Below, piece by piece: positions 3,023-21,331 of a stretch of DNA of 64,000 nucleotides. Numbering within the stretch: position 1 is the stretch's first letter; every line of letters starts with the position of its first letter. The stretch lies in the IMG/VR virus record IMGVR_UViG_3300023210_000015, positions 1-64,000 of that record, one strand, 5' to 3'. The notes under the pieces were generated by a model. That model made no database searches and was not told the DNA's origin. It saw nothing but the letters and a program-made list of their open reading frames with translations. The DNA is from a virus. A program made the position numbers and the translations under genes.

Positions 3023-3425
3023 AGTTAGAGATCAAGAAGGCAACATTAAGCATATATCGTCAGATGACTTGGAGCAGGGAAAAATTATCCAAGAAGAACT
3101 AGATGAGAATCTTTTAACAAGAGTAGGTTTGGTTTTCGCTGAAATAAAAGATGTCTTAATATCAGAAGCAGAAAAAATAGGCACATTAGAACAATTCGAA
3201 ATGCTTTTTATGCGTAGCGATGATCCCGAAAAAGATATTGAAACATGGGAAGACATTGTTAGGTCGTATAAGCTGGCCCAAAAATATTTTGGTCCGAGAG
3301 AAGAAATTCGCAGGATTATTTTTCGCATTCTTATGTTTTATGTTGTTGATGCCCTTTCAGATGAAGAGAATGAAAGGGAAGATGTGAAATTAATCAAGAA
3401 AATATATGACAACCTGCGAAAATAA
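3006..3425 (+). CDS. Hypothetical protein
   Basis: A 139-residue acidic, mostly helical soluble protein with no recognised domain. Its ATG lies inside the end of the NADAR gene (17-base overlap), and its end overlaps the start of the GT9-sulfotransferase gene by 20 bases, so the three are translationally linked. Confidence 0.6.
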   Translation: MDRKIRVRDQEGNIKHISSDDLEQGKIIQEELDENLLTRVGLVFAEIKDVLISEAEKIGTLEQFEMLFMRSDDPEKDIETWEDIVRSYKLAQKYFGPREEIRRIIFRILMFYVVDALSDEENEREDVKLIKKIYDNLRK

Positions 3426-5439: not shown

Positions 5440-6436
5440 ACATATTATTTATCCAGGAAGGTCTACAGATATTTCCGAACCTGTTGTTAAAGAGAAATTT
5501 ACAGATTTTGATATAGATTTAGTTTATACATGGGTAGATGGTGATGATGCTGAACACCTGAAAAAACGTAAAAAATGGCAAAATATTTTGCATGGTAGAG
5601 GGGCTACTAGCACTATCAGATTTAGCAATAATGGGGAATTGCGATATTCCATGCGATCTGTTTACAAATTTCTTCCTTGGATTAAGCACATATATATAAT
5701 AACAGATGGGCAGAGGCCACCGTGGTTGAATACAGATCACAACAGAATACGTATAGTCGATCACAAAGAGGTATTTAAGGATCATTCTTGTTTGCCATCT
5801 TTCAGTTCTAATGCTATTGAAGCAAACATAGATAATATCGAAGGGCTTTCTGAATATTTTATATATATGAATGATGATTGTTTTATCAATAAGTTGCAAT
5901 CAAAAAGGCGGTTTTTTTCTGAAGATGGAAAATGTATAATATATACTAATAGGCAAAATGTTTCTAAGGATGGCATATCTAGAAAAACGCCGCCCCATAA
6001 AGCTGCATTACGCAACTCTAATAAATTACTTGATCAACAATTTATAAGAGAAGGACGCAAAAAAGTTATTCATCAAGCCATACCATGCCTTAAAAGTGTA
6101 ATAAAATATTGTAAAAAGGTTTTTGTGGATCAGATTTATAAAAATTGTAAAAGTAAATTTCGTTCTAATGATTCTCTTGCGATGACTAATCTGCTTTATC
6201 CATATGCTTCTATATATATGAATAAAGGAAAAAGGTTAACGCATATCTCGCAAATTTTTTCTAGTCTTAATAGTAACATGCTTAATAATGCAGTGAAATT
6301 ACAAAGAATTGAAAACGAAAACCCAGATTTCTTTTGTTTCAACGATATGATTAGAGGCAATAGAGAAACTGTTATTAAGCAGTTCAATTCCTTTTTGGGA
6401 GAAAAATTTACTAGCCAAGCACCGTGGGAGATGTAA
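5429..6436 (+). CDS. Stealth-family sugar-phosphate transferase
   Basis: The order of conserved regions matches the Stealth family (CR1 to CR4): DLVYTWVDGDD at about residue 30, then the GELRYSMRSVYKFLPWIKHI region with IITDGQRPPWL and a VDHKEVF, YMNDDCF (metal-binding acidic pair), and a C-terminal conserved part. Stealth proteins transfer sugar-1-phosphate units to build phosphodiester-linked capsule polysaccharides and include the catalytic part of GlcNAc-phosphotransferase (family knowledge). The length of about 335 residues is normal. The ATG at 5429 overlaps the previous gene by 11 bases. Finding this family in a phage is unusual and points to envelope or capsule remodelling. Confidence 0.88.
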   Translation: MENKHIIYPGRSTDISEPVVKEKFTDFDIDLVYTWVDGDDAEHLKKRKKWQNILHGRGATSTIRFSNNGELRYSMRSVYKFLPWIKHIYIITDGQRPPWLNTDHNRIRIVDHKEVFKDHSCLPSFSSNAIEANIDNIEGLSEYFIYMNDDCFINKLQSKRRFFSEDGKCIIYTNRQNVSKDGISRKTPPHKAALRNSNKLLDQQFIREGRKKVIHQAIPCLKSVIKYCKKVFVDQIYKNCKSKFRSNDSLAMTNLLYPYASIYMNKGKRLTHISQIFSSLNSNMLNNAVKLQRIENENPDFFCFNDMIRGNRETVIKQFNSFLGEKFTSQAPWEM

Positions 6437-6437
6437 A

Positions 6438-6839
6438 ATGATATTGTACACAGCAGGATACAACAATTGGGTTGATGATGATTTCTTCAAAACTCTACGA
6501 GAATTAAACGAAGACTATGTTGTGATTGATGTGAGATTTTCTCCTTTTTCAAAGATGCCGTGGTGGACCAAGAAAGCATTATCAAATGAATTAGGAGAAT
6601 CTTATATACATATGGGAAAACTCGGCAATATAAACTACAATAGTGTTAACTCTCTTATAAAAATCGCGGATATAGAAACATGTGAAAAAGTAATACAGAT
6701 CATGAATAAAGGGTTTGTTTGTATATTGTTGTGTGCTTGTGATGAATATGATAAATGTCATCGCAAAATTGTTGCAGAAGAAATACAAAAAAGGACTGAT
6801 TGCAAAATAAGACAATTAGAAGAATTACATGAAGATTAA
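6438..6839 (+). CDS. DUF488-family protein
   Basis: A 133-residue protein that begins ILYTAGYNNW and carries DVRFSPFSKMPWW and a LLCACDEYDKCHR stretch, the conserved features of the DUF488 family (Cys-x-Cys...Cys-His near the C terminus). The biochemical role of the family is poorly defined. It starts one base after the Stealth gene stop and overlaps the next gene by 11 bases. Confidence 0.75.
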   Translation: MILYTAGYNNWVDDDFFKTLRELNEDYVVIDVRFSPFSKMPWWTKKALSNELGESYIHMGKLGNINYNSVNSLIKIADIETCEKVIQIMNKGFVCILLCACDEYDKCHRKIVAEEIQKRTDCKIRQLEELHED

Positions 6840-7725
6840 GTTAAAACAACATGTTATTAATTCGGAATCTAATGCGGTTATCTTAGGGGCTAATTCTACA
6901 GGGCTAGGAGGTAAACTCAAAACAATAGCATGGGGATTGGCTTTATCTGAAGTCAGCAATTCTGATTATGTTTTTATATGGAAATTGAATAATGAATGTG
7001 GTGGAAAAGATATGATTCCTGATCGATTAATAAAAAATGTCAATTTCTTTGTTCCTGATGTATTTGACAAAACGGTGGTGGATGAGTTTAAAAAAGAGAC
7101 TCCGGATTGTAAAATCGCTTTTGATTTTGTTACTGGTGTTCACAGGGATCACCCAAATAGAGACATAAAGAAATTTGCACGCGAATACAAAGTGAAAATT
7201 CGTTGCGGTATTGGCAAGGCCGTATATTGTGTATATGGACAAAAAAATCGATGGAAAAAGAGATTTATGGAGTCATTAAGAAAAATACAACCTACAGATG
7301 AAGTTCTTAGCAAAAATAATGCTTTTAAAGAGTATAATGTAGAAGACATGGTTGGTGTCCATGTGCGATCAGGAGATGTTTTACAACTGAAAAAGAACAA
7401 TTTAGTTTATGGGAGAAGATATAATAGAAAATATGTTGGACCTAAGAAGTTCTTTAAATTTATAGATGAAAATTGTGATAAGCAATGTAAATTGTTTCTT
7501 TGTACAGAAGAAAAGTTTATTATAAAGAAATTCCAAAAAAGATACGGAGACAGAGTGATATTCAGGTCGATGTCTGATTATCAAAGGATATCTTTAAACG
7601 ATATACAAACTGCTTATGCCGATATGATTATGTTATCTAAGTGCAAATATATCATTGGTAGTAAAAGCCAGTTTTCTGATATATCTGCGTGGATAGGCGG
7701 CAGGAAAAAACATTTAATATCATGA
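6829..7725 (+). CDS. Fucosyltransferase-like glycosyltransferase, paralog 1
   Basis: The 298-residue protein carries GVHVRSGDV at about residue 168, the GDP-fucose binding signature (HxRxGD) of alpha-1,2/alpha-1,6 and protein O-fucosyltransferases. It also carries a C-terminal QTAYADMIMLSKC...GSKSQFSDISAWIGG region that fits the second nucleotide-sugar contact. The N terminus has a Gly-rich LGANSTGLGGKLK start. Two paralogs follow at 8841 and 14750. It lacks a membrane anchor, so it probably acts in the cytoplasm on a lipid- or nucleotide-linked glycan. Donor specificity is inferred from the motif only. Confidence 0.72.
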   Translation: MKIKLKQHVINSESNAVILGANSTGLGGKLKTIAWGLALSEVSNSDYVFIWKLNNECGGKDMIPDRLIKNVNFFVPDVFDKTVVDEFKKETPDCKIAFDFVTGVHRDHPNRDIKKFAREYKVKIRCGIGKAVYCVYGQKNRWKKRFMESLRKIQPTDEVLSKNNAFKEYNVEDMVGVHVRSGDVLQLKKNNLVYGRRYNRKYVGPKKFFKFIDENCDKQCKLFLCTEEKFIIKKFQKRYGDRVIFRSMSDYQRISLNDIQTAYADMIMLSKCKYIIGSKSQFSDISAWIGGRKKHLIS

Positions 7726-7892
7726 AGCCTAAATCTAAAAAAGAGGCGTGGTTATTTAAGCATTTTAAAGACCCTACAAATGGGGACGATCAGATGCTAG
7801 ATAGGGATGTGCGCCGATTAAGAAAGATGTGGAAGAGGAAAAGGACTAAGATGTTGAGAAGAATACACAAGAGGGTAGATAATGAAAGATAA
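7722..7892 (+). CDS. Small basic protein
   Basis: A 56-residue, strongly basic peptide (many Lys and Arg, LRKMWKRKRTKMLRRIHK region). Its ATG overlaps the TGA of the preceding gene (ATGA), and its end overlaps the methyltransferase gene. It may bind nucleic acid or acidic polymers. No family recognised. Confidence 0.55.
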   Translation: MKPKSKKEAWLFKHFKDPTNGDDQMLDRDVRRLRKMWKRKRTKMLRRIHKRVDNER

Positions 7893-8583
7893 TTTGACTG
7901 ACTATAAAGAATTCCCTGGTCCTAAAGAGTTTTTTGATATAAAAACTCCGGCTGTGTTTAATACCCTTATAGATAAAGGTATGACAGAAAATAGTTTTCT
8001 ACTTGATGTCGGGTGTGGCCCGTTAAGAATCGGTAGGCATTTAATAATTTTTTTATCTCCTAATAGATATTATGGGTTGGAACCTAACAAAAAGATGGTT
8101 AAATTGGGACTGAAGAATGAGGTTAAAAAAAAATATGGATCACATCTTTTACAACACAAAAATCCTCTTTTTACTTATAACAGTGATTTTGATTTAACAG
8201 ATTTTGATGGTGTACTGTTTAACATAGTTTTGGCTCACCAAGTTTTTATTCATTGTGGTCCTCAACAATTACAACAATTTCTTAGAAATATTTGTCCTTT
8301 TTTGGCTCCAGATGCTTCTATATTATTAACTATCAAAATAGGGGAAGAAAATTTTGCAAGAGGAACAAATAAGATGTATAAAGGAGCATCTCATGAAGCG
8401 GTGTGTTATACTGAAAAGGCTTTTCATAAGATATTAAATCAACATGGTTTTTTAGGTATAGTTGTTAAAAGAAAAAAACCTCATTCCATTATTCATAAGA
8501 AAAGAGGCTTAATTCAAACATGGTTTATGTTATCTTCTAAAAGGATAGATAATGAAAAAGAATCCACAGAGCCTATTTCATGA
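7882..8583 (+). CDS. SAM-dependent methyltransferase (class I)
   Basis: The 233-residue protein has the class I Rossmann motif LLDVGCGPLRIGRHL (motif I, SAM binding) near residue 40, followed by YYGLEPN, whose Glu would hold the ribose hydroxyls. GAGGG lies 8 bases before the ATG. It overlaps the genes on both sides and sits among glycosyltransferases, so a sugar O- or N-methyl decoration is the likely product. The substrate cannot be read from sequence. Confidence 0.8.
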   Translation: MKDNLTDYKEFPGPKEFFDIKTPAVFNTLIDKGMTENSFLLDVGCGPLRIGRHLIIFLSPNRYYGLEPNKKMVKLGLKNEVKKKYGSHLLQHKNPLFTYNSDFDLTDFDGVLFNIVLAHQVFIHCGPQQLQQFLRNICPFLAPDASILLTIKIGEENFARGTNKMYKGASHEAVCYTEKAFHKILNQHGFLGIVVKRKKPHSIIHKKRGLIQTWFMLSSKRIDNEKESTEPIS

Positions 8584-8881
8584 GTTGGTAAAGCGAATTC
8601 AGTTTTATGCTGGTTGCAGAACGGAAGAATTCGAAATTGAAATGTATCGTCGTGATGGCAGAGAAATACCTGATAAGTTATTGCCAGGAAGAATGCTTGA
8701 ACGCATGAAAAAAAATATGACAGATGAAGAGAAAAAGGCTTTGAAAGAGATAACTTCTGATATGGCCGCTAATACTTGGTGGCCTAAATGCGAAATATTT
8801 GAAGAAGAAAATTGGGATAAAGAGAATAATAGACCTAGAGATGATTATTGGGACAGATATAAAAAACGTCCTAAAAAGTAA
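8552..8881 (+). CDS. Hypothetical protein
   Basis: A 109-residue charged, soluble protein with no recognised domain. AGGATAGATA precedes its ATG. It overlaps the methyltransferase at its start and the next fucosyltransferase-like gene at its end. It ends in a Lys/Arg/Pro-rich tail. Confidence 0.5.
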   Translation: MKKNPQSLFHELVKRIQFYAGCRTEEFEIEMYRRDGREIPDKLLPGRMLERMKKNMTDEEKKALKEITSDMAANTWWPKCEIFEEENWDKENNRPRDDYWDRYKKRPKK

Positions 8882-9746
8882 ACATAGAAAGATCGTTTTT
8901 GACTATGGGTATTGTGGACTTGGCACGCGACTGAAGCAAATTGCTTGGGGGAAAACCATTGCGAAAGTCAGCAATTCAGATTATCTGTTGATCTGGTTTA
9001 AAACATGGGATTGTGGTGGAAAAGAAATGAATCCACTAGACATTATCACAAATGTCGATTTTTTTATTCCAAAATTAGATTTTAAAGTTTCACGACACAT
9101 ATACAAAAATAATACAAATTTGTTAAGATATTGGGAATCTGCTGAAGAACAGATGAAAGAAAAATACAAGGATGTTTCAGATTTCTTATTTTTTCGTGAT
9201 CGGGTTAGAAAAAATTTGTATAAAGAAAAAGCGAAATTCCCTTTAAGAAATAACATTAAAAAACATGTTAGAGATTTTTGGTTCGCCGACAATCAAGAAA
9301 AAACTTATGATGATTTGTACACTATATTTTTACGAATGTTACAAAACATACAACCATCGAAAACGGTTTCAAAAAAAGTAGAGTCTTATAATGTGGATAA
9401 TTTCATAGGAGTCCACGTAAGGAGAGGGGATGTCATATCATCTGCTTGTCGTGTCAATGTAAAGAAATATTTTGATTTTATTGATTCTCGCACAATATGT
9501 CATGATAAAAAAATCTTTTTATGTACAGAAAATCAAAAAGTTATAAACGGATTTAAAGAACGATACAAAAACAGAATTATTTGTCGTCCTCTGGTAAAAT
9601 TCCACAGAAATTCACTCAAAGGGATACAAAATGCCTATGCAGATATGCTTTTATTGTCCAAATGTGATTTTATTATTGGCGGTAAAAGTCATTTCTCTGA
9701 TATATCAGCGACAATTGGCGGGATTAAAAAGAAAACTTTAGGATAG
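8841..9746 (+). CDS. Fucosyltransferase-like glycosyltransferase, paralog 2
   Basis: It has the same plan as the genes at 6829 and 14750: an N-terminal DYGYCGLGTRLKQIAWGK segment, a shared WDCGGKE block, IGVHVRRGDV (fucosyltransferase HxRRGD) and a C-terminal AYADMLLLSKC...GGKSHFSDIS block. The ATG at 8841 fits the paralogs' length. An in-frame ATG at 8799 would add 14 residues with no homology. The tract 9502-9569 is identical in DNA to 15375-15442 in paralog 3, which suggests recent recombination. It ends with TAG, 3 bases from the convergent sulfotransferase gene. Confidence 0.72.
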   Translation: MIIGTDIKNVLKSKHRKIVFDYGYCGLGTRLKQIAWGKTIAKVSNSDYLLIWFKTWDCGGKEMNPLDIITNVDFFIPKLDFKVSRHIYKNNTNLLRYWESAEEQMKEKYKDVSDFLFFRDRVRKNLYKEKAKFPLRNNIKKHVRDFWFADNQEKTYDDLYTIFLRMLQNIQPSKTVSKKVESYNVDNFIGVHVRRGDVISSACRVNVKKYFDFIDSRTICHDKKIFLCTENQKVINGFKERYKNRIICRPLVKFHRNSLKGIQNAYADMLLLSKCDFIIGGKSHFSDISATIGGIKKKTLG

Positions 9747-9749
9747 ATA

Positions 9750-10319
9750 CTAGAAACTGTATTTGAAATATTCTATATCGTTTTTGAATTTATTACTTAC
9801 CATGTTCATCATTTCGTCATTATAGTATTCTCTATAATGTTTGTGAACGGTTTTATTTTTGTGAGGTAATTTGTCAATGATGTTTAACTTTTTGTAGACG
9901 CACTCGAAGTCTTCATTTATATTCTCAAATCTAACAATAAAATCCATTTTTATATTACCGTTGATAAACATCATGGTTTCTGGTCTTTTTTTTGCAAAGA
10001 AAGATTTTCGAAACTCGTGATTCATGTAATATTTGAATTTTTCTTTGTTGAAAGAATCTGGTGAATTCTTTTTTATCACCCTATCTCTCCATGCGGCCCA
10101 AGACACAGTTGCCGCCCAAGGATTTCTTACAACAGCAAATTTAAAATAATTGTTGAATTCTTTTGGGAATTTTTTCTGATAATATTGAATACCGGCATGT
10201 TTTCGAGGAAGGTGTTGTAATTTTTTTGGGTCTGGATCGGCACCCAGTAAAACAGCTACACTTTCTCCTCCTGTTTTTGGGATATGTATAAAAATGCATT
10301 TGTGTTTGTGTGATATCAT
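9750..10319 (-). CDS. Sulfotransferase (Sulfotransfer_2-like)
   Basis: The 189-residue protein begins MISHKHKCIFIHIPKTGG, where HIPKTGG is the 5'-phosphosulfate loop that binds PAPS. FAVVRNPWAATVSWAAW is the 3'-phosphate binding region (Arg, Ser). This start matches the N terminus of the fusion protein encoded just upstream on the same strand, so it is chosen over an ATG 24 bases earlier. The C-terminal end NDIEYFKYSF also matches the end of that fusion, so the genes are related by duplication. Confidence 0.82.
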   Translation of the reverse strand: MISHKHKCIFIHIPKTGGESVAVLLGADPDPKKLQHLPRKHAGIQYYQKKFPKEFNNYFKFAVVRNPWAATVSWAAWRDRVIKKNSPDSFNKEKFKYYMNHEFRKSFFAKKRPETMMFINGNIKMDFIVRFENINEDFECVYKKLNIIDKLPHKNKTVHKHYREYYNDEMMNMVSNKFKNDIEYFKYSF

Positions 10320-10321
10320 AA

Positions 10322-10921
10322 TTATTTTGGAATCCTTTTGCAACGATGACCTTTAGGTAACAGTCTATTTTTCTGCGGCCCGGCCCCATATATATATTTT
10401 CTTTCAAATCCATGATCAAATAAAATCTTTTCATATTTTCGGTTATAAGCATTCCAAGGATAACAAAAATATTGAGGTCGTAAATTAAATGTGTTTTTAA
10501 ACCATTTCATCATTAATGAAGTATCTTTTTGAAGGAAATCAATTCTTTCTTCTTTTGTTTGCAACTTATCAATTGCGTGGCTTTTTGGCAAATACTTTTG
10601 TTCAGGTTTTGTGCCACGCATTGCGTGATAATATGAATGACCGCCAAGAAAACATCGATATTGAGAAGCGATCTTTTTAATTTGATCTAAATTCATACAA
10701 TGTTCCCATCCATATTTTCCTGGATAAGAGCCATCAAGATGTTCTATTCTACATGGAACAACAAAAAATATTTTATCTGTTTTTATCTCTGAAATTCTAT
10801 CAAAATAGTCATATTGGGAAAGCCTACCGTCATCAAATGTAAGAATATAATTTTCCAAAGGCATTCTAAACAACTCTTCGGTAACTTCATGTATCATCAA
10901 AATGGGTTTGTTAGAATTCAT
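10322..10921 (-). CDS. Polysaccharide deacetylase (NodB/CE4-like)
   Basis: The 199-residue protein contains ILTFDDG (motif 1: catalytic base and metal Asp), GGHSYYH (HSxxH metal ligands, motif 2) and FCYPWNAYN (motif 3-like) in the usual order. CE4 enzymes remove N- or O-acetyl groups from GlcNAc polymers. No signal peptide is seen, so it would act in the cytoplasm. It lies between two sulfotransferase genes on the minus strand with an overlap at its start. De-N-acetylation could prepare amino groups for N-sulfation (inference). Confidence 0.82.
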   Translation of the reverse strand: MNSNKPILMIHEVTEELFRMPLENYILTFDDGRLSQYDYFDRISEIKTDKIFFVVPCRIEHLDGSYPGKYGWEHCMNLDQIKKIASQYRCFLGGHSYYHAMRGTKPEQKYLPKSHAIDKLQTKEERIDFLQKDTSLMMKWFKNTFNLRPQYFCYPWNAYNRKYEKILFDHGFERKYIYGAGPQKNRLLPKGHRCKRIPK

Positions 10922-12854
10922 ATTTAAAATATTCTATATCTTTTTTGTATTTCTCCATAATAATCTTTTGTACATCATCTGTATACGGTTTCTCGAAATG
11001 TCCACATCCCTTTAAGGCATGAGGTAAATCATTTTTTACAATAGGTTTTTCTAATAAATTACACAACTCTTTCCATTGATCGCCAAGACCCCAACATAAT
11101 ACTTTAAATTGTTCTTTTGGCTTATCTTTAAAGAAATCAACAACATCTCTGTTGTGTTTCATATACACATCAATATGTTTTAAGCATATTTCTTTTTTCT
11201 TTTCATCGTTCCATTTTTCGTTGTAAGGCATACTATACCCATATAAATATTTTCTCCATGCTGGACCATTGTATTTAGACCCGTCATTTTTCCAGCAATG
11301 ATTGCACAAACTAGTATACCAAATCAACGGATTTTTCCTGACGGTCAAAGCGAATTTTGCATCTGGGTATTTGGCATATAATTGTTTATACAATAATAGC
11401 CATGGCCAATCTCTTGCCATCTTAAAATTATCTATAGTATTGATTATTTTACTATATTTACCTTTTTTGTATAATTTATATAAATTTGGAGATGTTGCTT
11501 TCGCTGGGCTAAATCCTAATTTTTCACAACATCTTTGCAGGGTGGTAGAGCCGGTTTTGTGAAATCCTATACCAAAAACCTTTTCTTTTGAATTATTTTT
11601 GATGTTTTTTATCCTCACTTCTGTTGGAAATTTTTTTCTACCACTCAACCCGGAAGAAAGATCGAATGCGATTGGTGGACACATTGTAAAATGAGAATGT
11701 TTTTTTGCTACTATAGCGTGAGCATAGATGTCCGAAGTTCCATTTCCGTGGGTTTTTGTGTTATCTAGTGATTCTAGTAGAATTTTTGCCATCTTATCAT
11801 TAATTGCGTAACATGGGTTGGACATTTTATGCGATTGTGTATCAAATTTTGGTGTTCCACTGTATCTCGCGTCTTTTTTAAAATGTTGACTCCAACCAAG
11901 CCTTATCAATATAGGAACATTCATGTCTATTCCGTGTTCTATAAATGCCGCATTTGAAAGTAAATCGTTTGTTACGGCTAAACATTTTTTTGTGAATTTG
12001 ATATCATCTTCACATATTAAACAAAATGAATTAGGTTGTTTTGCGATTGTCTCCCATGTTTTAATGTGGGATAGCCAATTGGCTATTTTGAATGGACCTA
12101 GTGTTTTTTTACTATAACTGAGTTTCGGGTTTTTCACGGCAGCTTTTGCTTCTTGACTGTCTCCGTCAACAGCTTTTATAAATTGGTATCTTTCGGTTCC
12201 CACACGCTTGAATTCTTTAATCATGTGTTCTTTTCGTTCTACGTTTCTTGCAAGATTAATACAATATACTTGATCAAACATTTCAAAACCACGTTTTTTC
12301 TTTTTTCTTTCATCAAATGTATAACTGAATTTTTTTATGTCTTTTGCGTGCATTTTTGCGACAATTTGCTTGGTTTCATCATTATAATATGATGTATAAT
12401 ATTGATGATAACCGATTCTTTGATTGCTGTGTGGCAATGTTATATTTTTGACACCCAATTTATCCAAAAGTGTGTTAAAATCATTTTGTAGATTTTCAAA
12501 TTTTAGAACAAAATCCATTTCATCTCCTATTATTTCACTTTGAACAGCCGCATTTTGTTCGTGTGCAACTAGTGTCGGGTTCGATAAATATTGTTTCCAT
12601 GTTTTTTGTTTTCTACGTCTTCCTCTATGAGAGCGAAAAAGCGAAACCATCCAATCCCACGGATTCCTGACGACAGTAAATTTAAAATATCCTTCCCAAT
12701 TATCTTTGTATAGATTTTTTGCAGTTTTCCAATCAAGATGTTTTGTTTTTTTTTCAACTTTCCACCAATCTGCTTCGGTTAAGGCTTTTTCTATGCTTGT
12801 TCCACCTGTTCGTGGGATATGTATAAAAATGCATTTATGTTTATGTGAAATCAT
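10911..12854 (-). CDS. Sulfotransferase-GT25-sulfotransferase fusion
   Basis: The 647-residue protein has three parts. Residues 1-190 are a Sulfotransfer_2-like domain with IFIHIPRTGGTS and TVVRNPWDWMVSLF. Residues about 190-420 match glycosyltransferase family 25 (LPS galactosyltransferases): FDQVYCINLARNVERKE, AVDGDS and ICEDDIKF. Residues about 425-647 are a second P-loop sulfotransferase-like domain, with FGIGFHKTGSTTLQRCCEKLGF as the phosphosulfate loop. The arrangement suggests one polypeptide that adds a hexose and sulfates it at two sites. No frameshift or internal stop is seen. Its start overlaps the end of the radical SAM gene by 4 bases. Confidence 0.8.
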   Translation of the reverse strand: MISHKHKCIFIHIPRTGGTSIEKALTEADWWKVEKKTKHLDWKTAKNLYKDNWEGYFKFTVVRNPWDWMVSLFRSHRGRRRKQKTWKQYLSNPTLVAHEQNAAVQSEIIGDEMDFVLKFENLQNDFNTLLDKLGVKNITLPHSNQRIGYHQYYTSYYNDETKQIVAKMHAKDIKKFSYTFDERKKKKRGFEMFDQVYCINLARNVERKEHMIKEFKRVGTERYQFIKAVDGDSQEAKAAVKNPKLSYSKKTLGPFKIANWLSHIKTWETIAKQPNSFCLICEDDIKFTKKCLAVTNDLLSNAAFIEHGIDMNVPILIRLGWSQHFKKDARYSGTPKFDTQSHKMSNPCYAINDKMAKILLESLDNTKTHGNGTSDIYAHAIVAKKHSHFTMCPPIAFDLSSGLSGRKKFPTEVRIKNIKNNSKEKVFGIGFHKTGSTTLQRCCEKLGFSPAKATSPNLYKLYKKGKYSKIINTIDNFKMARDWPWLLLYKQLYAKYPDAKFALTVRKNPLIWYTSLCNHCWKNDGSKYNGPAWRKYLYGYSMPYNEKWNDEKKKEICLKHIDVYMKHNRDVVDFFKDKPKEQFKVLCWGLGDQWKELCNLLEKPIVKNDLPHALKGCGHFEKPYTDDVQKIIMEKYKKDIEYFKYEF

Positions 12855-13687
12855 TTGGTATTCTTTTTTTTGAATTTTAACATTTTTTTGACGTTTTTAC
12901 ACCCGCTACATAAAGAATATAATTTACGACCTTTGCTCCTCTTAAGATTTCGACATATTTCAATGTGTTTTTTTGACCACCATATTTGTTCAATCGACTC
13001 ATTAAAGACATTTCCTAATCCAAATTCAGCCTTCATATCTTCGCAACACATCGCAACATTCCCGTCATAATGAATTATTAATCTTTTTGAAGATTCAAAA
13101 CATGGCTGATTGCATGCTGAATCTAATTTCTTTTTTATTTTAGCATCGGATTCATCTATTTGTGACATATCCATGTTCGGTCTTACCTTGAAGTAAGATG
13201 ATTGTCCGCGACAACTAAAGGTAAGTTTGGTATTTTTGAATTTTTTCCTCCAAAACTTTTTTTGAGTATTTAATTGTTTTTGATTTTTGTAGTCATATAA
13301 TCCTACACACACACGATGAAATATACTATCTATGCTTTTGCATAGTTCTGGATTGTCTTTGAGTCTATCGCCATTGGTGTGCATAAATGGTCGCATTCCC
13401 ATAGATTTAGCATCAGTTGCTATATCAATCAATCTGTTGTCCAATGTGGGTTCACTCATATGGTGAAAAGCTATGGGTCCGGCAAAATGCAGTTTTACAA
13501 GTTGATTTAAAATATCATATACCTTATCGGTTGGCAAAAATTGCTGTTTAATCGGATTGCCATTTTTGTCTTTTCTATTCCCAGAACGATCAGAAAATCT
13601 AGGACAGAACCAACAATTTCGGTCGCATGACGATTGTAATTCGAGAAGGACTTTTGAAAATTTTTTCATTTTGTTGTTTTGGTTCAA
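12851..13687 (-). CDS. Radical SAM/SPASM-domain protein
   Basis: The 278-residue protein has SSCDRNCWFCPR near residue 14 (CxxxCxxC binding the SAM iron-sulfur cluster). A Cys-rich C-terminal half (CNQPCF, GNVAMCCEDM, FNESIEQIWW, SLCSGC) matches the SPASM or twitch domain that holds auxiliary clusters. Such enzymes modify peptides or sugars. It heads the minus-strand glycan operon, and its neighbours suggest a carbohydrate or lipid substrate, which is inference. A second Met at residue 7 is an alternative start. Confidence 0.8.
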   Translation of the reverse strand: MNQNNKMKKFSKVLLELQSSCDRNCWFCPRFSDRSGNRKDKNGNPIKQQFLPTDKVYDILNQLVKLHFAGPIAFHHMSEPTLDNRLIDIATDAKSMGMRPFMHTNGDRLKDNPELCKSIDSIFHRVCVGLYDYKNQKQLNTQKKFWRKKFKNTKLTFSCRGQSSYFKVRPNMDMSQIDESDAKIKKKLDSACNQPCFESSKRLIIHYDGNVAMCCEDMKAEFGLGNVFNESIEQIWWSKKHIEICRNLKRSKGRKLYSLCSGCKNVKKMLKFKKKNTK

Positions 13688-13781
13688 TATAGTCGATATA
13701 ATAATGAGTTCGTATAATATATCGTCAATATGAGATAAAAACTGAAGAAAGGTATTATTTTAAAAATTAGAATATAAACGC

Positions 13782-14645
13782 ATGGAGATATTGAAAAGAA
13801 AAATAGAAAAAAAGACCAAATTTGTGAATGGTAAAAGAATTGCATATAAACTAATAACTACTGTTTTTCGAAAAAGAGATAATATATTCTATAAATTTGG
13901 ATTTCCGACTAAAGACCTTGATAGTATTAATGAGTTTGGTACGCGTTCCCAAATCCCAGATAAAAATGCAAAAAAAATTGTTTGCCTTGGTTGTTCGCAC
14001 ACATACGGAAAGGGTTTAGAGCAAGAGGATACATGGCCGTATAAATTAGGCGAAAACATACAGATGAATAAGAAGGAACACTATCAGGTTCTAAATATGG
14101 GGCGAAGGTCATATGGTTCTAAAATTCTTATTGATTGGTATGATTTTTTCGTAGATAAAAACTATAAACCTCATATGTGTATATTTCAGCTTCCTAATTA
14201 TTTTAGACAGCCACATCCTACTATGCAACCTAATAAAATGAAATTTTATACATCATCTATGGGCATAACGGACCTCTATAAAAAAGGAATAATAGGAAAC
14301 ATCAAATTCGAATCACAGTTTAACATTATAATGAATAAGGAGTTGCAAAGATTAAAATGTTTTTTTGCTAAAATACAAAAAAAAGACATAAAACTGGTTG
14401 TCGTATTCTATCTGGCTATCGCAAAATTTATAGAAGAATCAGATGCTCGAAAAAGTCAAATACAATATTTTGATTTGATTGAAGAATTTTGCGATAACAA
14501 TAATATAGATGTAGTCAGGAGTCACAAGTTAGATTATCGTTATTTTCGTGATAATGATATGACTGTCGACTATACTCATCCGAATGAGAAGGGAACAGAG
14601 TTTTTTTCTAATGAGGTTTATAAAACGATAGAGAGATATTTATGA
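13782..14645 (+). CDS. SGNH/GDSL-type hydrolase
   Basis: The 287-residue protein has VCLGCSHTYGKGL at about residue 67 (block I nucleophile Ser), a VLNMGRRSYGS stretch (block II Gly) and a C-terminal DYTHPNEKGTEFFS carrying the catalytic Asp-x-x-His. These are hallmarks of SGNH esterases and acyl hydrolases. Within a glycan island, addition or removal of O-acyl groups is likely. It starts the plus-strand half of the island after a 94-base divergent intergenic region rich in TATAAT-like sequence. Confidence 0.78.
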   Translation: MEILKRKIEKKTKFVNGKRIAYKLITTVFRKRDNIFYKFGFPTKDLDSINEFGTRSQIPDKNAKKIVCLGCSHTYGKGLEQEDTWPYKLGENIQMNKKEHYQVLNMGRRSYGSKILIDWYDFFVDKNYKPHMCIFQLPNYFRQPHPTMQPNKMKFYTSSMGITDLYKKGIIGNIKFESQFNIIMNKELQRLKCFFAKIQKKDIKLVVVFYLAIAKFIEESDARKSQIQYFDLIEEFCDNNNIDVVRSHKLDYRYFRDNDMTVDYTHPNEKGTEFFSNEVYKTIERYL

Positions 14646-14740
14646 AAAAAATGATTAAACGTATTTGGAAAAGAATATGTAAATTGTTTAAGAAAAAATT
14701 TTCTAGTGAACCACCAGAAGATATATATCCAATGTGGTAA
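14642..14740 (+). CDS. 32-residue basic peptide
   Basis: A short frame whose ATG overlaps the TGA of the SGNH gene (ATGA) encodes MKKMIKRIWKRICKLF followed by a Lys-rich segment and an acidic, Pro-rich tail ending IYPMW. The helix is basic and amphipathic. The coupling and position between two genes support translation, but the function is unknown. Confidence 0.45.
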   Translation: MKKMIKRIWKRICKLFKKKFSSEPPEDIYPMW

Positions 14741-14749
14741 TGACAGATT

Positions 14750-15634
14750 ATGATAAAAGATAAAAAACTATCTGAGCGTTCTTGTGATTCTATAATTTTT
14801 AACTATAGTTTTGGTGGTTTGGGGGTGCTGCTAAAGACGATAGCGTCTGGACAAATTATTTCTGAGCAATTAAACTTGCCATATATCTATGTATGGTTTA
14901 ATACATGGGATTGTGGTGGGACCGATATTAATGGCAGTGATTTAATTTCAAATGTGGATTTTTTTGTACCTCGATCATATCCCAAAAAACAACATCCAAA
15001 ACATTTATTCAAAAACAAAAAATATATGTCAGATTGCGTAAAATTTGCCGTTAAAGAAATGCAAAATAAATATAAAAATTGTTTTGATTTCCATGAAATA
15101 GGTAAAAGCATTATTTTTCATGCCACGTATTTTAATAAATTTCCGCCTTGCGGTGAAGTGAAAAAAAGAATTTTTCCTGTCTCTCTTATGATATATAATA
15201 AATTGAGGGAGATATCACCGTCAAATAAAATTAAAGAAATGGTTGAATATTATGAAAAAGATCATAATATGTCCGAATGCATAGGAGTTCATGTTAGGCG
15301 TGGTGATGTCCCAAAACGAAGATTGTTTGGAATAAAAAGGTATTTTAGTTTTTTGAAAAATCATAAAGAATTTAATGATAAAAAAATCTTTTTATGTACA
15401 GAAAATCAAAAAGTTATAAACGGATTTAAAGAACGATACAAAGACAGAGTTCTTTTTCGCCCTCCTATTGAAAATAGTAGAGATTCCATAAAAGGGATAC
15501 AAAATGCTTATACAGATTTATTGTTGCTATCAAAATGTAAATGTATTATAGGAGGGAAAAGTAGTTTTTCTGAAGTCGCTTCGATAATTGGTGGAATAAA
15601 AAAATATACTTTAATTAAAGAAGAAAGGTTGTAA
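14750..15634 (+). CDS. Fucosyltransferase-like glycosyltransferase, paralog 3
   Basis: The 294-residue protein repeats the plan of the two earlier paralogs: FGGLGVLLKTIASGQ near the start, WDCGGTD, CIGVHVRRGDV, and the C-terminal AYTDLLLLSKCKCIIGGKSSFSEV block. It lies between the SGNH hydrolase and a sulfotransferase. A 68-base identical DNA tract is shared with paralog 2 although the flanks have diverged. Confidence 0.72.
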   Translation: MIKDKKLSERSCDSIIFNYSFGGLGVLLKTIASGQIISEQLNLPYIYVWFNTWDCGGTDINGSDLISNVDFFVPRSYPKKQHPKHLFKNKKYMSDCVKFAVKEMQNKYKNCFDFHEIGKSIIFHATYFNKFPPCGEVKKRIFPVSLMIYNKLREISPSNKIKEMVEYYEKDHNMSECIGVHVRRGDVPKRRLFGIKRYFSFLKNHKEFNDKKIFLCTENQKVINGFKERYKDRVLFRPPIENSRDSIKGIQNAYTDLLLLSKCKCIIGGKSSFSEVASIIGGIKKYTLIKEERL

Positions 15635-15644
15635 TTTTTAACAA

Positions 15645-16457
15645 ATGACCACAAAATTTGAAATTATAGAATGGTATGGTAAAGAATATAAAGTTTATGA
15701 TAAATTTCCTAATATTTGTTTTATACATATAGGAAAATGTGGCGGGAGTTTTATGAGAACTGCTATATTTGATAAACAAATTAAATTAAGAATTATTCAT
15801 GGACGTAAAGTGAAATTTGATGATAGATTTCAATACTTTTTATGGATCAGAAATCCATTGAACAGATTTGTATCGGCTTTTAATAGCGTTGTAGAATGTG
15901 TAAATTATGATGTATCTGGCCTACGTGCCGATGAAATAACTTTAAATAATTGCACTGAACCGAAAGTGGTAAGAAGAAAAATTCGAACTGGTTTTGCTTA
16001 TTCTAGAAAAAAAGATCATTTGGTAAATTTATTTAAAACCCCTAATGCTTTAGCAGAATCTCTTGCAAATTCAAATAAAAAAATTAAGAATTTGGCTATG
16101 AAATTGATAACTGGCAAACTAGCAATTAAACATATACGTAAAGGAATAGGTTTTTATTTAAATAATGGGCAATTCATCAAAAAGCATAATAATAACATAC
16201 TTCTAGTCGGTAAGATGGAAAAGATGGAAGATGATCTTAAAAAATTTGCCGACATACTTGGTGTAGACGAGTTGGAAAACAAGAAAGTTAGAGAAAATAA
16301 ATCTAAAAATATTTCTAAATATCTTTCTCCGTTGGCAATAAAAAATTTATATAAATTTTATCGACATACTGACTATAGGGCTTTAAAAGTATTGAAAAAT
16401 AAAGGTTGGATAGATCAAGAAACTTATGAATCTTATCATGGATATTCAAATTTATAG
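15645..16457 (+). CDS. Sulfotransferase family protein
   Basis: The 270-residue protein has ICFIHIGKCGGSFMR (phosphosulfate loop, with GKCGG in place of PKTGG) near residue 25 and FLWIRNPLNRFVSAFN near residue 68 (3'-phosphate binding Arg and Ser). HIGKCGGS loops occur in chondroitin/carbohydrate sulfotransferase relatives. It follows a fucosyltransferase-like gene by 10 bases and ends in TAG. Confidence 0.78.
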   Translation: MTTKFEIIEWYGKEYKVYDKFPNICFIHIGKCGGSFMRTAIFDKQIKLRIIHGRKVKFDDRFQYFLWIRNPLNRFVSAFNSVVECVNYDVSGLRADEITLNNCTEPKVVRRKIRTGFAYSRKKDHLVNLFKTPNALAESLANSNKKIKNLAMKLITGKLAIKHIRKGIGFYLNNGQFIKKHNNNILLVGKMEKMEDDLKKFADILGVDELENKKVRENKSKNISKYLSPLAIKNLYKFYRHTDYRALKVLKNKGWIDQETYESYHGYSNL

Positions 16458-16478
16458 TTTTGTATTGGGTATATCGAT

Positions 16479-17483
16479 ATGATCATAAAACATTTGACAA
16501 AGACAAAGACAAAGACAAAGACAAAGACAAAGACAAAGACAAAGACAAAGACAAAGAGTGTTGGAATAGTTAGTAAAATAACTAAAATAGAATTACCTTA
16601 TTTAAATTCTTTTATTGATTATCATCATAAAATAGGAGTTTCCCAGTTTAGTTTTATCAGTACAAGAATCAATGAAACAAAAGAAATAAAAAAATATTTA
16701 TGTAATTACCCTTTTGTGAGAATTATTGATAAAGGGGTTGATATAAAAGGGCCAAAAAAGTTACATGGATGTCAAAATATACCGCTAAAACATTTAACCA
16801 CAGATTGGGTATTATCATTGGACCCTGACGAATATATTATTTTGCCTGATTACGAAAATTTAAATCAGTTTTTGCAGCATAGTCATATCTCATTGCCCTC
16901 TAGAACCGGAGGACGTTTGTTTACTTTTAATTGGATACTGATAGCTAATGATCAAATTGAGTATACGACTTTATGGGATGGAATTAAGTGCGATAAGATG
17001 TTAAAATATATGGCAAAAAGAGATTATATCAAAATACTTCATGACCACAAGGTAGTATATAATGGTTTTTTAAATTCAAAAAAAGATGTTATTGGCACTT
17101 CCCAGCATGGAGCTTATATAGCACACTATTGGGGTAGGACTATTAATGATATAATATTGAAAAGCATTTACCATACAAGCTCAAAAAAAAAGATGTCTTC
17201 TTTCAAAAATCTTATTCGAGATATTCAATCTGAGATTCTTCCTCCTCGTCTTAAAATTTTAGCTGCTCTTTGTAAAATGGATAAAAATTTTTCAATACAT
17301 AAAAGCCCTTTAAAGGTTGATAAAAAAACAGAAAACAAATATATTTACGAAGCGTTGACTAAAAAAGAATATAAAAAAATTAAAACAGTATTTTACCGAT
17401 ATAAAAACAGCATTAACGGTTGCACCGCTTTACGATCACATATGTTTAAACCGGTGGAATTGTTGAAAAAAATGCCACAATAA
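16479..17483 (+). CDS. Glycosyltransferase (GT2/GT92-like) with a Thr-Lys repeat
   Basis: The 334-residue protein starts with six residues, ten Thr-Lys pairs from a hexanucleotide repeat, and then a GVSQFSF-type strand. LSLDPDEYIIL supplies the DxD metal and nucleotide-sugar motif, and a GRLFTFNWILI stretch and HYWGR follow. The pattern (KIELPYLNSFIDYHHKIG region) is typical of the GT92 / Glyco_tranf_2_4 group. The repeat is a multiple of three, so changes in copy number alter the N-terminal length without shifting the frame. The stop lies within the bidirectional terminator shared with the convergent radical SAM gene. Confidence 0.72.
   Translation: MIIKHLTKTKTKTKTKTKTKTKTKTKSVGIVSKITKIELPYLNSFIDYHHKIGVSQFSFISTRINETKEIKKYLCNYPFVRIIDKGVDIKGPKKLHGCQNIPLKHLTTDWVLSLDPDEYIILPDYENLNQFLQHSHISLPSRTGGRLFTFNWILIANDQIEYTTLWDGIKCDKMLKYMAKRDYIKILHDHKVVYNGFLNSKKDVIGTSQHGAYIAHYWGRTINDIILKSIYHTSSKKKMSSFKNLIRDIQSEILPPRLKILAALCKMDKNFSIHKSPLKVDKKTENKYIYEALTKKEYKKIKTVFYRYKNSINGCTALRSHMFKPVELLKKMPQ
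16497..16556 (+). repeat. (ACAAAG)10 hexanucleotide tandem repeat
   Basis: Ten perfect copies of ACAAAG lie within codons 7-26 of the glycosyltransferase gene and encode Thr-Lys pairs. Perfect repeats of this length are prone to slippage. Confidence 0.95.
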
Positions 17484-19090: not shown

Positions 19091-19165
19091 GCTCTCGTAG
19101 GCTAACTGGCATAAGCCGCAGATTTCAAACGTCTGTGTTTGTGGGTTCGACTCCCACCGAGAGTA
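19091..19165 (+). tRNA. tRNA with anticodon CAA (Leu), short variable loop
   Basis: The acceptor is GCTCTCG/CGAGAGT with discriminator A. The D arm is GGCT/AGCC, the anticodon stem CAGAT/GTCTG with loop TTCAAAC, and the T arm GTGGG-TTCGACT-CCCAC. The variable region is only about 5 bases, while bacterial tRNA-Leu normally has a long variable arm. Confidence 0.8.
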
Positions 19166-19168
19166 TGA

Positions 19169-19244
19169 GCCTGGGTAGGCTAATTGGCATTGCCGGTTGA
19201 TTTAAAATCAGCGACGTATGCGAGTTCGAATCTCGCTCCAGGCA
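19169..19244 (+). tRNA. tRNA with anticodon TAA (Leu), short variable loop
   Basis: The acceptor is GCCTGGG/TCCAGGC with discriminator A, the anticodon stem GTTGA/TCAGC with loop TTTAAAA, and the T arm GCGAG-TTCGAAT-CTCGC. The variable region is about 7 bases, so again this is a class I shape for a leucine anticodon. Confidence 0.8.
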
Positions 19245-19250
19245 GTTAAA

Positions 19251-19333
19251 GCGGTTGTGGCGGAACGGTAGACGCGTCAGATTGAGAGTCTGGTAGGTGA
19301 AAGCCTGTGGAGGTTCGAATCCTCTCAGCCGCA
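19251..19333 (+). tRNA. tRNA-Leu(GAG)
   Basis: This is a normal class II leucine tRNA. The acceptor is GCGGTTG/CAGCCGC with discriminator A, the anticodon stem TCAGA/TCTGG with loop TTGAGAG. The long variable arm has an AGGT/GCCT stem, and the T arm is GGAGG-TTCGAAT-CCTCT. Confidence 0.88.
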
Positions 19334-19354
19334 TTGTATAACAAGGAGAATAAA

Positions 19355-20051
19355 ATGAATAAACAGAAAGGCTGTCTTTGATGTTTTATTGGAAGTTCAG
19401 TTTGGCGAAGGCGGAAAGGACTCGAAACTGTTTGTAGGTGATTTGTTTGCAGCATATGCTAGATATGCTATCGCTAATAAATTGAAAATTGAAAAGTTGT
19501 ATGATGGAGATGGATATATTTCTGCTAAAATTACTGGTAGAAATTCTTGGAATCTGTTTGAGAACGAAGCTGGTAAGCATTGCGTCCAGCGTATCCCTCC
19601 GACAGAATCGAAAGGAAGAAGGCATACTTCCATTATAACTGTTGCTGTAATCAAAATGGATTTAGATTTGCCATTGATTAATTTGTCAGATATTGAGTTT
19701 AAAACGCAGGGTGGCCATGGAAAAGGTGGGCAGCATCAAAATAAAACTGATTCTGCTGTTAGAGCTAAACATAAGGTGACGAAAATCGAAGTTTTCATTA
19801 ATGGAAGAAGTCAACACCAGAATAAACAGAATGCCTTGCGGATATTGACGGCCAAGGTTAATAACCACTATGATAAGAAAAGGCGTGAAAGAGTTCGCCA
19901 AGATATACAAAAGCATAGAGGCGGTGGAGGTAGAGGAAACAAAATACGCACTTATAACTTTATTGCATCAAGAGTCGTTGACCATCGTTCTGGTCTAAAA
20001 ACAAGACAAATTGAAAAAATAATGAAGGGCAGATTCGATCTGTTAAAATAA
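19355..20051 (+). CDS. RF1-like peptide chain release factor, +1 frameshift
   Basis: Translation should start at the ATG at 19355, which has a strong AAGGAG at 19343-19348, and read 8 codons (MNKQKGCL) to CTT TGA at 19376-19381. A +1 shift there enters the long frame from GAT at 19380 and gives a protein of about 231 residues. The shifted frame matches RF1 directly: LLEVQFGEGG, VQRIPPTESKGRRHTS (PxT codon-reading motif for UAA/UAG) at about residues 81-83, KGGQHQN (GGQ catalytic loop) at about 124-126, SQHQNKQNAL and RTYNF...RVVDHR. Domain 1 of RF1 (about 100 residues) is missing. An AAAGG lies 4 bases before CTT, as in the internal Shine-Dalgarno of bacterial prfB. The only start in the long frame is a TTG at 19389, which has no ribosome-binding site and loses conserved residues. 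Confidence 0.85.
19367..19381 (+). promoter_or_regulatory. prfB-type +1 frameshift site
   Basis: AAAGGC-TGT-CTT-TGA reproduces the order of the prfB recoding site: a Shine-Dalgarno-like purine run, a short spacer, the slippery CTT codon and an in-frame TGA. The base that follows is T, a poor termination context partly resembling the C of prfB. Confidence 0.7.
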
Positions 20052-20287
20052 TGGGTAAGAAAAAGAAAAATGATAATCAGCGTAGAGAATACGAAACAAA
20101 ACATTATGTAATATATTATCTTCCCATCACGGGAGAAATTATTATTAGACCCAAAAAAAGAAGTATATTTGGGATGCTTAATGATCATCATGATTATATC
20201 AATCATTGTGGACTTTGTGGTCAAAGGGTAAAGCTTTTTATGACTAAGAATAAATCTGTGATTTGTGAGCATTGTAAAAAAGATTGA
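20051..20287 (+). CDS. Small zinc-ribbon protein
   Basis: A 78-residue basic protein with a C-terminal CGLCGQ...CEHC pair of CxxC motifs that would bind one zinc ion. The ATG overlaps the TAA of the release factor gene, so it is translationally coupled and may share a ribosome-related role, which is inference. Confidence 0.65.
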   Translation: MGKKKKNDNQRREYETKHYVIYYLPITGEIIIRPKKRSIFGMLNDHHDYINHCGLCGQRVKLFMTKNKSVICEHCKKD

Positions 20288-20292
20288 TAACT

Positions 20293-20382
20293 GGAGAGTA
20301 GCCGAATATTGGTTTGTCGGGTCTGATTGCTAATCAGATTGGCCTCTAAAGGGTCATGAGGGTTCGATTCCCTTGCTCTCCG
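20293..20382 (+). tRNA. tRNA-Ser(GCT)
   Basis: The acceptor is GGAGAGT/GCTCTCC with discriminator G (usual for Ser). The D arm is CCGA/TCGG, the anticodon stem TCTGA/TCAGA with loop TTGCTAA. It has a long variable arm, and the T arm is GAGGG-TTCGATT-CCCTT. Confidence 0.88.
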
Positions 20383-20390
20383 TCATGTAC

Positions 20391-20462
20391 GGCTAGTTGG
20401 TGAAGTGGAAACATCGGAGTCTGCAAAACTCTGAAGCGAGGGTTCGATTCCCTCACTAGCCT
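20391..20462 (+). tRNA. tRNA-Cys(GCA)
   Basis: The acceptor GGCTAGT/ACTAGCC is perfect with discriminator T (U73, the Cys identity base). The anticodon stem GGAGT/ACTCT has loop CTGCAAA, and the T arm is GAGGG-TTCGATT-CCCTC. Confidence 0.88.
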
Positions 20463-20467
20463 GTTTT

Positions 20468-20554
20468 GGATGCGTGGCAGAGTCTGGTTTATCGCGCCAT
20501 CTTGGAAAGGTGGTTGGCCTTCGGGTCACATAGGTTCAAATCCTATCGCATCCG
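20468..20554 (+). tRNA. tRNA-Ser(GGA)
   Basis: The acceptor is GGATGCG/CGCATCC with discriminator G, the anticodon stem CCATC/GGTGG with loop TTGGAAA. It has a long variable arm, and the T arm is ATAGG-TTCAAAT-CCTAT. Confidence 0.88.
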
Positions 20555-20560
20555 TTTAGT

Positions 20561-20647
20561 GGAGGGTAGTGGGGATAGGTTCCCCGACCAGCGTTGAACA
20601 CTGGACCAGCGTGATGAGCGTTGACGGTTCGAATCCGTTACCCTCCT
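20561..20647 (+). tRNA. tRNA-Ser(TGA)-like
   Basis: The acceptor GGAGGGT/ACCCTCC is perfect, with a T arm of GACGG-TTCGAAT-CCGTT and a long variable arm. The anticodon stem CCAGC/ACTGG has one mismatch next to loop GTTGAAC, which gives anticodon TGA. The discriminator is T rather than the usual G of Ser tRNAs. Confidence 0.7.
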
Positions 20648-20651
20648 TTGT

Positions 20652-20732
20652 GGAAGGCAGCAGGGAATGGTCCCTAACTGGCGTCGAATACCAGGCCAAC
20701 TACGGTTGCCGGTTCGATTCCGGTACCTTCCT
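20652..20732 (+). tRNA. tRNA-Ser(CGA)-like
   Basis: The acceptor is GGAAGGC/ACCTTCC (last pair mismatched), with a T arm of GCCGG-TTCGATT-CCGGT. The anticodon stem CTGGC/ACCAG has one mismatch beside loop GTCGAAT, giving anticodon CGA. The discriminator is T. It resembles the preceding tRNA and is probably a tandem duplicate. A run of seven T follows and may end the transcript. Confidence 0.7.
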
Positions 20733-20752
20733 TTTTTGCCGATATAATAAAA

Positions 20753-21049
20753 ATGAATTGGCAAAAACATATAGAAGATTTAAAAAATAACAATGATATT
20801 GTTATCAAGCCTCGTGGACATTCGATGTCTCCAAAGATCGACAATAAAAATACAGTCACTATTTCTCCCGACATAAATGATATAAAAAAAGGAGATATTG
20901 TCTTTTGTAAGGTCAAAAACAACCATTATATCCATTTGGTTACTGCCGTAAATAAGGACAGATATCAAATTAGCAATAACAAAGGTCGAATAAACGGATG
21001 GGTAGGAAAAAAATGTATTTTCGGAAAGGTTATAAAAATCGAAAAGTGA
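20753..21049 (+). CDS. S24/S26-like peptidase-fold protein
   Basis: A 98-residue protein with PRGHSMSPKI (nucleophile Ser of LexA/UmuD and signal peptidase folds), a TISPDINDIKKGDIVFCK strand-turn (KxGDIV) and YIHLVT. This is the compact S24/S26-like core found in many phages. The general-base Lys is not certain, so it may be an inactive binding domain. No DNA-binding domain is attached. An AT-rich GCCGATATAATAAA precedes the ATG and may serve as a promoter. Confidence 0.65.
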   Translation: MNWQKHIEDLKNNNDIVIKPRGHSMSPKIDNKNTVTISPDINDIKKGDIVFCKVKNNHYIHLVTAVNKDRYQISNNKGRINGWVGKKCIFGKVIKIEK

Positions 21050-21059
21050 ACCTATAATG
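21030..21059 (+). promoter_or_regulatory. Predicted promoter (TTATAA-N17-CTATAATG)
   Basis: TTATAA at 21030-21035 is 17 bases from TATAAT at 21053-21058 and directly precedes the tRNA-Gln genes. Confidence 0.55.
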
Positions 21060-21067
21060 TAATAAGA

Positions 21068-21140
21068 TGCCTCGTAGTTCAACTGGCGGAACACACGACT
21101 CTGAATCGTGAGGTTGTAGGTTCGATCCCTACCGAGGCAG
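21068..21140 (+). tRNA. tRNA-Gln(CTG), copy 1
   Basis: The acceptor TGCCTCG/CGAGGCA is perfect with discriminator G. The D arm is GTTC/GAAC, the anticodon stem CACGA/TCGTG with loop CTCTGAA, and the T arm GTAGG-TTCGATC-CCTAC. Confidence 0.9.
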
Positions 21141-21146
21141 TTATAT

Positions 21147-21182
21147 TCCCCCGTGGTGTAGTGGTAGCACGGAAGACTTTTA
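21147..21182 (+). pseudogene. 5' half of a tRNA-Lys(TTT), broken in the anticodon loop
   Basis: The segment TCCCCCG-TG-GTGT-AGTGGTA-GCAC-G-GAAGA-CTTTTA matches positions 1 to 37 of a tRNA with anticodon TTT. It then runs directly into the acceptor of the second tRNA-Gln, without the 3' anticodon strand TCTTC. A T arm with a mostly complementary acceptor (6 of 7) occurs 0.9 kb downstream, after an HNH gene. Confidence 0.6.
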
Positions 21183-21255
21183 GGGGAGTAGCATAACTGG
21201 ATAATGCCTCGCACTCTGAATGCGAAGATTGCAGGTTCGAATCCTGCCTTCCCTG
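21182..21255 (+). tRNA. tRNA-Gln(CTG), copy 2
   Basis: The acceptor AGGGGAG/CTTCCCT has one G-T pair and discriminator G. The D arm is GCAT/ATGC, the anticodon stem TCGCA/TGCGA with loop CTCTGAA, and the T arm GCAGG-TTCGAAT-CCTGC. Its first base is the last base of the broken tRNA-Lys half. Confidence 0.85.
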
Positions 21256-21331
21256 ATATTGTGACACCCGAACATAAAAATAAAAAGGAATGTTACCATT
21301 TATGTTGAATTGATAGAACGAGGAGATATAA

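Follow-up and report, generated by a model that had tools for sequence, protein, structure and literature searches.

Our subject is a gene for a class-I release factor in a 64,000-nucleotide stretch of viral DNA (IMG/VR record IMGVR_UViG_3300023210_000015, positions 1 to 64,000), hereafter called the window. The gene is split, close to its beginning, by a CTT TGA sequence resembling the frameshift site of bacterial prfB. The features of the locus are listed below.

19343 to 19348, forward strand: Shine-Dalgarno (SD) sequence AAGGAG of the leader open reading frame (ORF), read from the sequence
19355 to 19381, forward strand: leader ORF of 8 codons (MNKQKGCL) ending in TGA, read from the sequence; locus L046 is arranged alike
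19367 to 19371, forward strand: weak internal SD-like element AAAGG (-3.2 kcal/mol)
19376 to 19382, forward strand: putative +1 shift site CTT TGA T, where CTT_T would re-pair to TTT; CTT-stop is kept in 31 traced loci
19380 to 20051, forward strand: RF1-type class-I release factor, domains 2-4, in the +1 frame, ending in TAA
19389 to 19391, forward strand: internal TTG, the sole in-frame alternative start, with no SD ahead and inside the first strand of domain 2
19596 to 19604, forward strand: PPT (PxT) stop codon recognition motif of RF1 type (P73, P74 and T75 invariant in alignment A1)
19725 to 19733, forward strand: GGQ catalytic motif (G116, G117 and Q118 invariant in alignment A1)
20051 to 20287, forward strand: next ORF, 78 amino acids, whose start overlaps the release factor stop (TAATG)
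19091 to 21256, forward strand: tRNA cluster containing the release factor gene (three Leu, three Ser, one Cys and two Gln)

The leader begins with ATG (19355-19357) and continues AAT AAA CAG AAA GGC TGT CTT, with the last codon at 19376-19378 and TGA at 19379-19381. The release factor frame runs from GAT at 19380, one base into the TGA, to TAA at 20049-20051, and is open for 223 amino acids. An earlier inspection of these letters (the sequence-only reading) had described the same order: AAGGAG, ATG, 8 codons ending CTT TGA, and an RF1-like frame one base on. All of this can be read directly in the sequence. Measured from stop to stop, the release factor frame opens at 19359, and its first ATG, GTG or TTG is the TTG at 19389. 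Hence, the body has no ordinary in-frame start. The leader of L046 has the same layout (MKTNRRCL, then TGA). We counted CTT-stop +1 joins, in the first 20 codons and with an upstream ATG frame, among window open frames of at least 150 codons. Only one of 58, the release factor, has such a join. Since the join also recurs in homologues, it is beyond chance.

The gene encodes a class-I release factor of RF1 type that retains only domains 2-4. Among PDB chains, similarity is far greater to RF1 (E about 1e-45) than to RF2 (E about 1e-28). Similarity to PrfH is weak (E about 1e-9 to 1e-10) and falls mostly in the GGQ part. Pfam detects the RF-1 domain and positions 101-194 of the 194 in PCRF. Because PCRF is matched only from position 101, domain 1 is missing and the body begins at domain 2. 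These matches bear out the initial description of an RF1-type PPT protein lacking domain 1. The predicted structure has a mean predicted local distance difference test score of 89, and by fold it is most like ribosome-bound mtRF1a and RF1 (template modelling scores of 0.82-0.86). In alignment A1, PPT and GGQ are invariant, and PPT is the same in members with only TGA at the shift site and in those with TAG. The residues encoded between the shift site and TTG 19389 are hydrophobic and conserved, and belong to the first strand of domain 2. Such a protein would be expected to be active as a release factor. The gene is the sole RF-1 family match across the 109 kb record and, similarly, a single match was found in each of 18 phage records searched (18/18). 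Hence, within the reach of the contigs, there is no second phage release factor.

We searched IMG/VR and scanned bacterial genomes for homologues, and followed their frames with a frame-tracing script. A CTT-stop +1 join, before or inside the RF1-type body, was traced at 31 distinct loci. A further locus, L284, was added by homology with L153. The 32 joined loci are phage contigs from many samples and five Obscuribacterales metagenome-assembled genomes (MAGs). The nearest homologues share the break at about 50% protein identity and have unrelated flanks. In every frame-broken locus except L076 (GTT TGA), the codon preceding the stop is CTT. As a control, we examined 74 homologues in which a long frame lies upstream, almost all of them bacterial full-length factors (RF1 and RF2 pooled). 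These are continuous. The homologues retain the site, and the proposal of a prfB-type +1 shift site before an RF1-type phage factor is supported. The proposal that homologues be aligned for conservation of CTT TGA had a mixed outcome: CTT-stop is conserved, but the stop itself is not fixed. Briefly, the 39 sites comprise 19 TGA, 18 TAG and 2 TAA. Two joins follow one another in seven loci, where two successive shifts would be needed. The stops are TAG and TGA in L042 and L151, TAG twice in L004 and L081, TAA and TGA in L036, and TGA twice in L002 and L086. Taken together, these comparisons strongly support frameshifting at the conserved CTT-stop site.

Related gene structures were also seen. 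L075 and L082 have an in-frame TGA shortly after the start, a variant on the same theme. L073 has an ordinary ATG start, yet an in-frame TAG in domain 2. In L003 (about 3304-5672), about 2.4 kb separate body residue 146 from the rest of the gene, which resumes in another frame. The interruption is perhaps an intron with a homing endonuclease.

For the mechanism, we adopted that established for prfB, in which the slip from CUU to UUU is triggered by slow termination (PMC12421855, PMC5009743). A ribosome on the short leader would slip by +1, from CUU to UUU, ahead of the leader stop, allowing release factor synthesis. If a release factor read the leader stop quickly, the leader peptide would simply end. 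Conversely, slow termination at this stop would permit the ribosome to slip and complete the factor. We consider it likely that the phage RF1-type factor sits behind a frameshift checkpoint of this RF2 style, and is made only after a +1 slip. On this reading, the shift would take place at the leader stop in vivo and would answer to release factor levels. The phage, we suggest, probably measures stop codon reading before making its own factor, which would serve it when host termination is overloaded.

What is sensed should depend on the stop. As PPT is invariant, the product should not read UGA. Hence, the natural input at the window site would be the activity of host RF2, with a phage factor for UAA and UAG as the output. 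The sequence-only reading had likewise envisaged a UGA-sensing switch. That idea fits the window and the other loci with TGA only, as far as inference goes. It was too narrow in fixing the stop as UGA, since UAG is about as frequent and the two sometimes stand in tandem. Many relatives have UAG, a stop specific to RF1, ahead of an RF1-type factor, and this would amount to direct autoregulation. For relatives with UAG or UAA, the expected specificity of the factor covers the stop, and a negative loop would result. This would be RF1 autoregulation, the mirror of prfB.

Several observations weigh against such a checkpoint. First, UGA sites leave the loop open, since the factor itself is not in it. 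Second, the homologues L045, L089 and L091 do without the break, and so the checkpoint is not essential. Continuous homologues were among the outcomes named beforehand as refuting a shift, together with a one-base sequencing error and initiation at the internal TTG; these three loci apart, no such outcome was encountered. Third, L044, L079, L083 and L242 keep the site with no SD-like element at all. Finally, the window site is not a strong example. The AAAGG preceding CTT is present, as in prfB, but its strength had been overstated; 19% of random positions pair with the anti-SD sequence at least as strongly as it does (-3.2 kcal/mol). In addition, TGA is followed by T instead of the usual C, which should favour termination.

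Across the family, the sites have further features in common. The stop is followed by C at 28 of 38 sites, and TGT directly precedes CTT at 18 of 38. Pairing with the anti-SD sequence is within the top 5% of random positions at 17 of 38 sites (Kolmogorov-Smirnov p 1.6e-6). Flanks drift while CTT-T-stop is retained, for example in L087 and L088. In this pair (2850-3000), the release factor bodies are near-identical, the leaders are widely different, and TGTCTTT is kept; the stop is TAA in one phage and TAG in the other. The leader seems to evolve fast or to have been swapped. Site position also varies. In the main clade (31 rows; Shimodaira-Hasegawa-like approximate likelihood ratio test support of 97 in a quick tree), the site is usually ahead of the first strand of domain 2; in L154 and L118, it is within domain 2. 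In a second group (L005 and L240-L244), it is within domain 2 in all six members, about 36 codons from the start in those where the start can be seen. Because position differs between groups, the shift device has either changed place or had more than one origin; the weak resolution of the tree does not allow a choice.

The choice of stop bears on alternative explanations. UAA is the commonest stop in these genomes and nearly absent at the shift sites: 2 were observed and 16.3 expected from local stop usage (P 3e-8). Avoidance of UAA is expected where the stop must report on one factor. If, instead, the site were a fixed translational brake, keeping a potentially harmful factor low, nothing would be sensed and the identity of the stop would be uninformative. 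Stop identity has indeed been altered often, with 10 changes on the tree; L036 and L042, which are 84% identical, differ at the first site (TAA and TAG) and share TGA at the second. Furthermore, overexpression of release factors lowers fitness, RF2 more so than RF1 (PMC12421855). However, a brake that does not sense should accept UAA, which is nearly absent here as in prfB. We judge the brake improbable. More doubtful still is that the phage factor has altered specificity and also reads UGA, which would make the window site one of simple autoregulation. While TGA sites are as frequent as TAG sites, the invariance of PPT in both groups, and the similarity to RF1 and not RF2, argue against this. 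Very little credence is left for a sequencing or assembly error, a decayed gene, or direct initiation at TTG 19389. In favour are the in-frame TTG and the weak SD-like element of the window. However, more than 30 independent loci show the CTT-stop break, and in these the bodies are intact and the PPT and GGQ motifs invariant. Such conservation largely refutes this explanation and indicates that the window break is not a sequencing error. Initiation at the TTG is unlikely, as no SD precedes it and half of a conserved domain 2 strand would be lost.

The five Obscuribacterales MAGs (L149, L150, L152, L153 and L284) each encode a truncated RF1-type paralogue behind CTT TAG C. Such a paralogue was found in 5 of 50 genomes of the family to which L153 belongs. 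The neighbours of L150 and L153 look chromosomal, not phage-derived, and include extracytoplasmic function sigma and anti-sigma factors and MsrAB. RF-1 family factors of full-length size number two in G001 and G004, and one in G002 and G003; these counts pool RF1 and RF2 and come from draft MAGs. The recognition motif is PPT or PPS in L149 and L152, and PAS in L150 and L153.

A sister clade (L093-L148, for example L114) consists of truncated phage RF1 factors, marked by IEIRAAEGG, with one in-frame TGA at column 35 of the hidden Markov model. This TGA is present in 53 of 53 aligned loci (44 distinct), and the position is a TGG tryptophan codon in 37 of 37 aligned bacterial homologues. It is the sole internal stop in these bodies, and the remaining tryptophan codons are TGG. 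Sampled records have 32-59 tRNA matches, and no UCA tRNA was found in the stretches examined. L312 reads well in the standard code; L314 and L318 fit TGA as sense better. The TGA could be a UGA-readthrough checkpoint, or reflect genome recoding.

A broader reading would join these groups into one phage RF1-type lineage gated by termination capacity, through single UAG, tandem, single UGA and sister-clade readthrough modes. We give this even chances. Under it, single UAG sites would provide RF1 autoregulation, the missing counterpart of prfB. Tandem UAG and UGA sites (L042 and L151) would form an AND gate, needing both RF1 and RF2 to be limiting. At single UGA sites, including that of the window, RF2 would be sensed and a factor of RF1 type supplied. 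The sister clade would reach the same end by UGA readthrough at a fixed tryptophan codon.

The window uses the standard code. It is 93% coding under table 11, with long ORFs of up to 1192 amino acids; TGA is the stop in 6 of 72 ORFs, and no UCA tRNA was found in the window. Together, these results rule out a recoded genome, with TGA as tryptophan, for the window. We also rejected a UGA suppressor tRNA beside the gene. The tRNA at 19091 had been taken as UCA, and both ARAGORN and stem pairing give CAA. A tRNA-Leu(GAG) gene (19251-19333), encoding a reader of the slip codon CUU, lies 21 nucleotides upstream of the leader. It has A at position 37, which is usually G in such tRNAs. Its participation in the circuit was set aside as only an idea; among the shift-site flanks scanned, only those of the window and L005 have such a tRNA near the gene, without A37 being shared. 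The window genes for tRNA-Leu(CAA) and tRNA-Leu(UAA) (19091-19165 and 19169-19244) lack a long variable arm.

Downstream, the neighbours of the release factor gene are the 78-amino-acid ORF, tRNAs and an HNH endonuclease. This ORF, which has no Pfam or PHROG match, is possibly coupled translationally to the release factor gene by the TAATG overlap. Elsewhere in the window, ribonucleotide reductase and portal ORFs (37888-41466 and 59605-63000) are unusually long, with intein-like inserts that start with Cys, end with HN-Cys or similar, and contain a LAGLIDADG-like stretch. A long block of ORFs resembling glycosyltransferases, fucosyltransferases and sulfotransferases, judged by eye, precedes the tRNA cluster (3406-17483). 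The ORF at 16479-17483 opens with a run of Thr-Lys dipeptides (TKTKTK...), possibly variable in copy number. Terminase matches are distant only (about 24% identity), to Microcystis and Streptomyces phages.

Frameshifting in RF2 is a textbook autoregulatory circuit, so far known only for this bacterial factor. A 2025 survey covering 12,753 genomes detected no programmed shift in prfA, and UAG in 0 of 8,164 prfB motifs (PMC12421855), compared with TAG at 18 of 39 sites in the present family. According to a large review, no RF2 gene is known to have an early in-frame stop and then continue in the same frame, and no UAG/RF1 counterpart is known either (PMC5009743). A paper on huge phages names both RF1 and RF2 as phage genes, without mention of frameshifting in its main text (PMC7162821). 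We found no earlier report of frameshifting in a phage release factor in the literature searched, which mostly excluded subscription papers and preprints, so that an earlier report is possible. That RF1-type genes of phages, and of a few bacterial MAGs, carry UAG and tandem sites suggests re-use of the circuit for the other factor. These sites are candidate natural RF1 sensors, with the double-shift genes being candidates for two-factor sensing. Such genes are easily overlooked, or labelled pseudogenes, by ordinary gene callers. If our interpretation is correct, large phages monitor termination capacity.

Four known systems invite comparison. Like bacterial prfB (PMC12421855, PMC5009743), the phage genes have a CTT-stop slip site, a predicted +1 shift, a short leader peptide and a class-I release factor downstream. 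In both cases an SD-like element is upstream in many members, C follows the stop in most, and UAA is avoided. In prfB, the SD-like element typically lies about 3 nucleotides ahead of CTT. Unlike prfB, the product is of RF1 type (PPT), without domain 1, and the stop is TAG in about half of sites, which is never so in prfB. Tandem sites in seven loci, sites inside domain 2 and the largely phage origin of the genes are further differences. PrfH (RF-H) is also a class-I factor without domain 1. However, PrfH has no RF1/RF2 tripeptide and is partnered by rtcB, whereas the phage factor keeps PPT and has no rtcB among its downstream neighbours. The RF1 of phages that read UGA as tryptophan (code 4), cited in PMC10746230 and represented here by the LR7565xx and LR745206 loci L037-L040, is likewise of RF1 type without domain 1. 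Those genes start at ATG with no shift and contain in-frame TGA codons, whereas the standard code applies in the window phage. The closest precedent is the eRF1-like factor of Mimivirus and Megavirus (PMC3521657), a viral class-I factor produced via recoding at internal stops, with two events and a CUU UAG C or CUU UAA C motif. That factor belongs to the eRF1 family, which is not homologous to bacterial RF1, and the host is eukaryotic. There, UGA readthrough is combined with one shift; the phage genes would use one or two +1 shifts.
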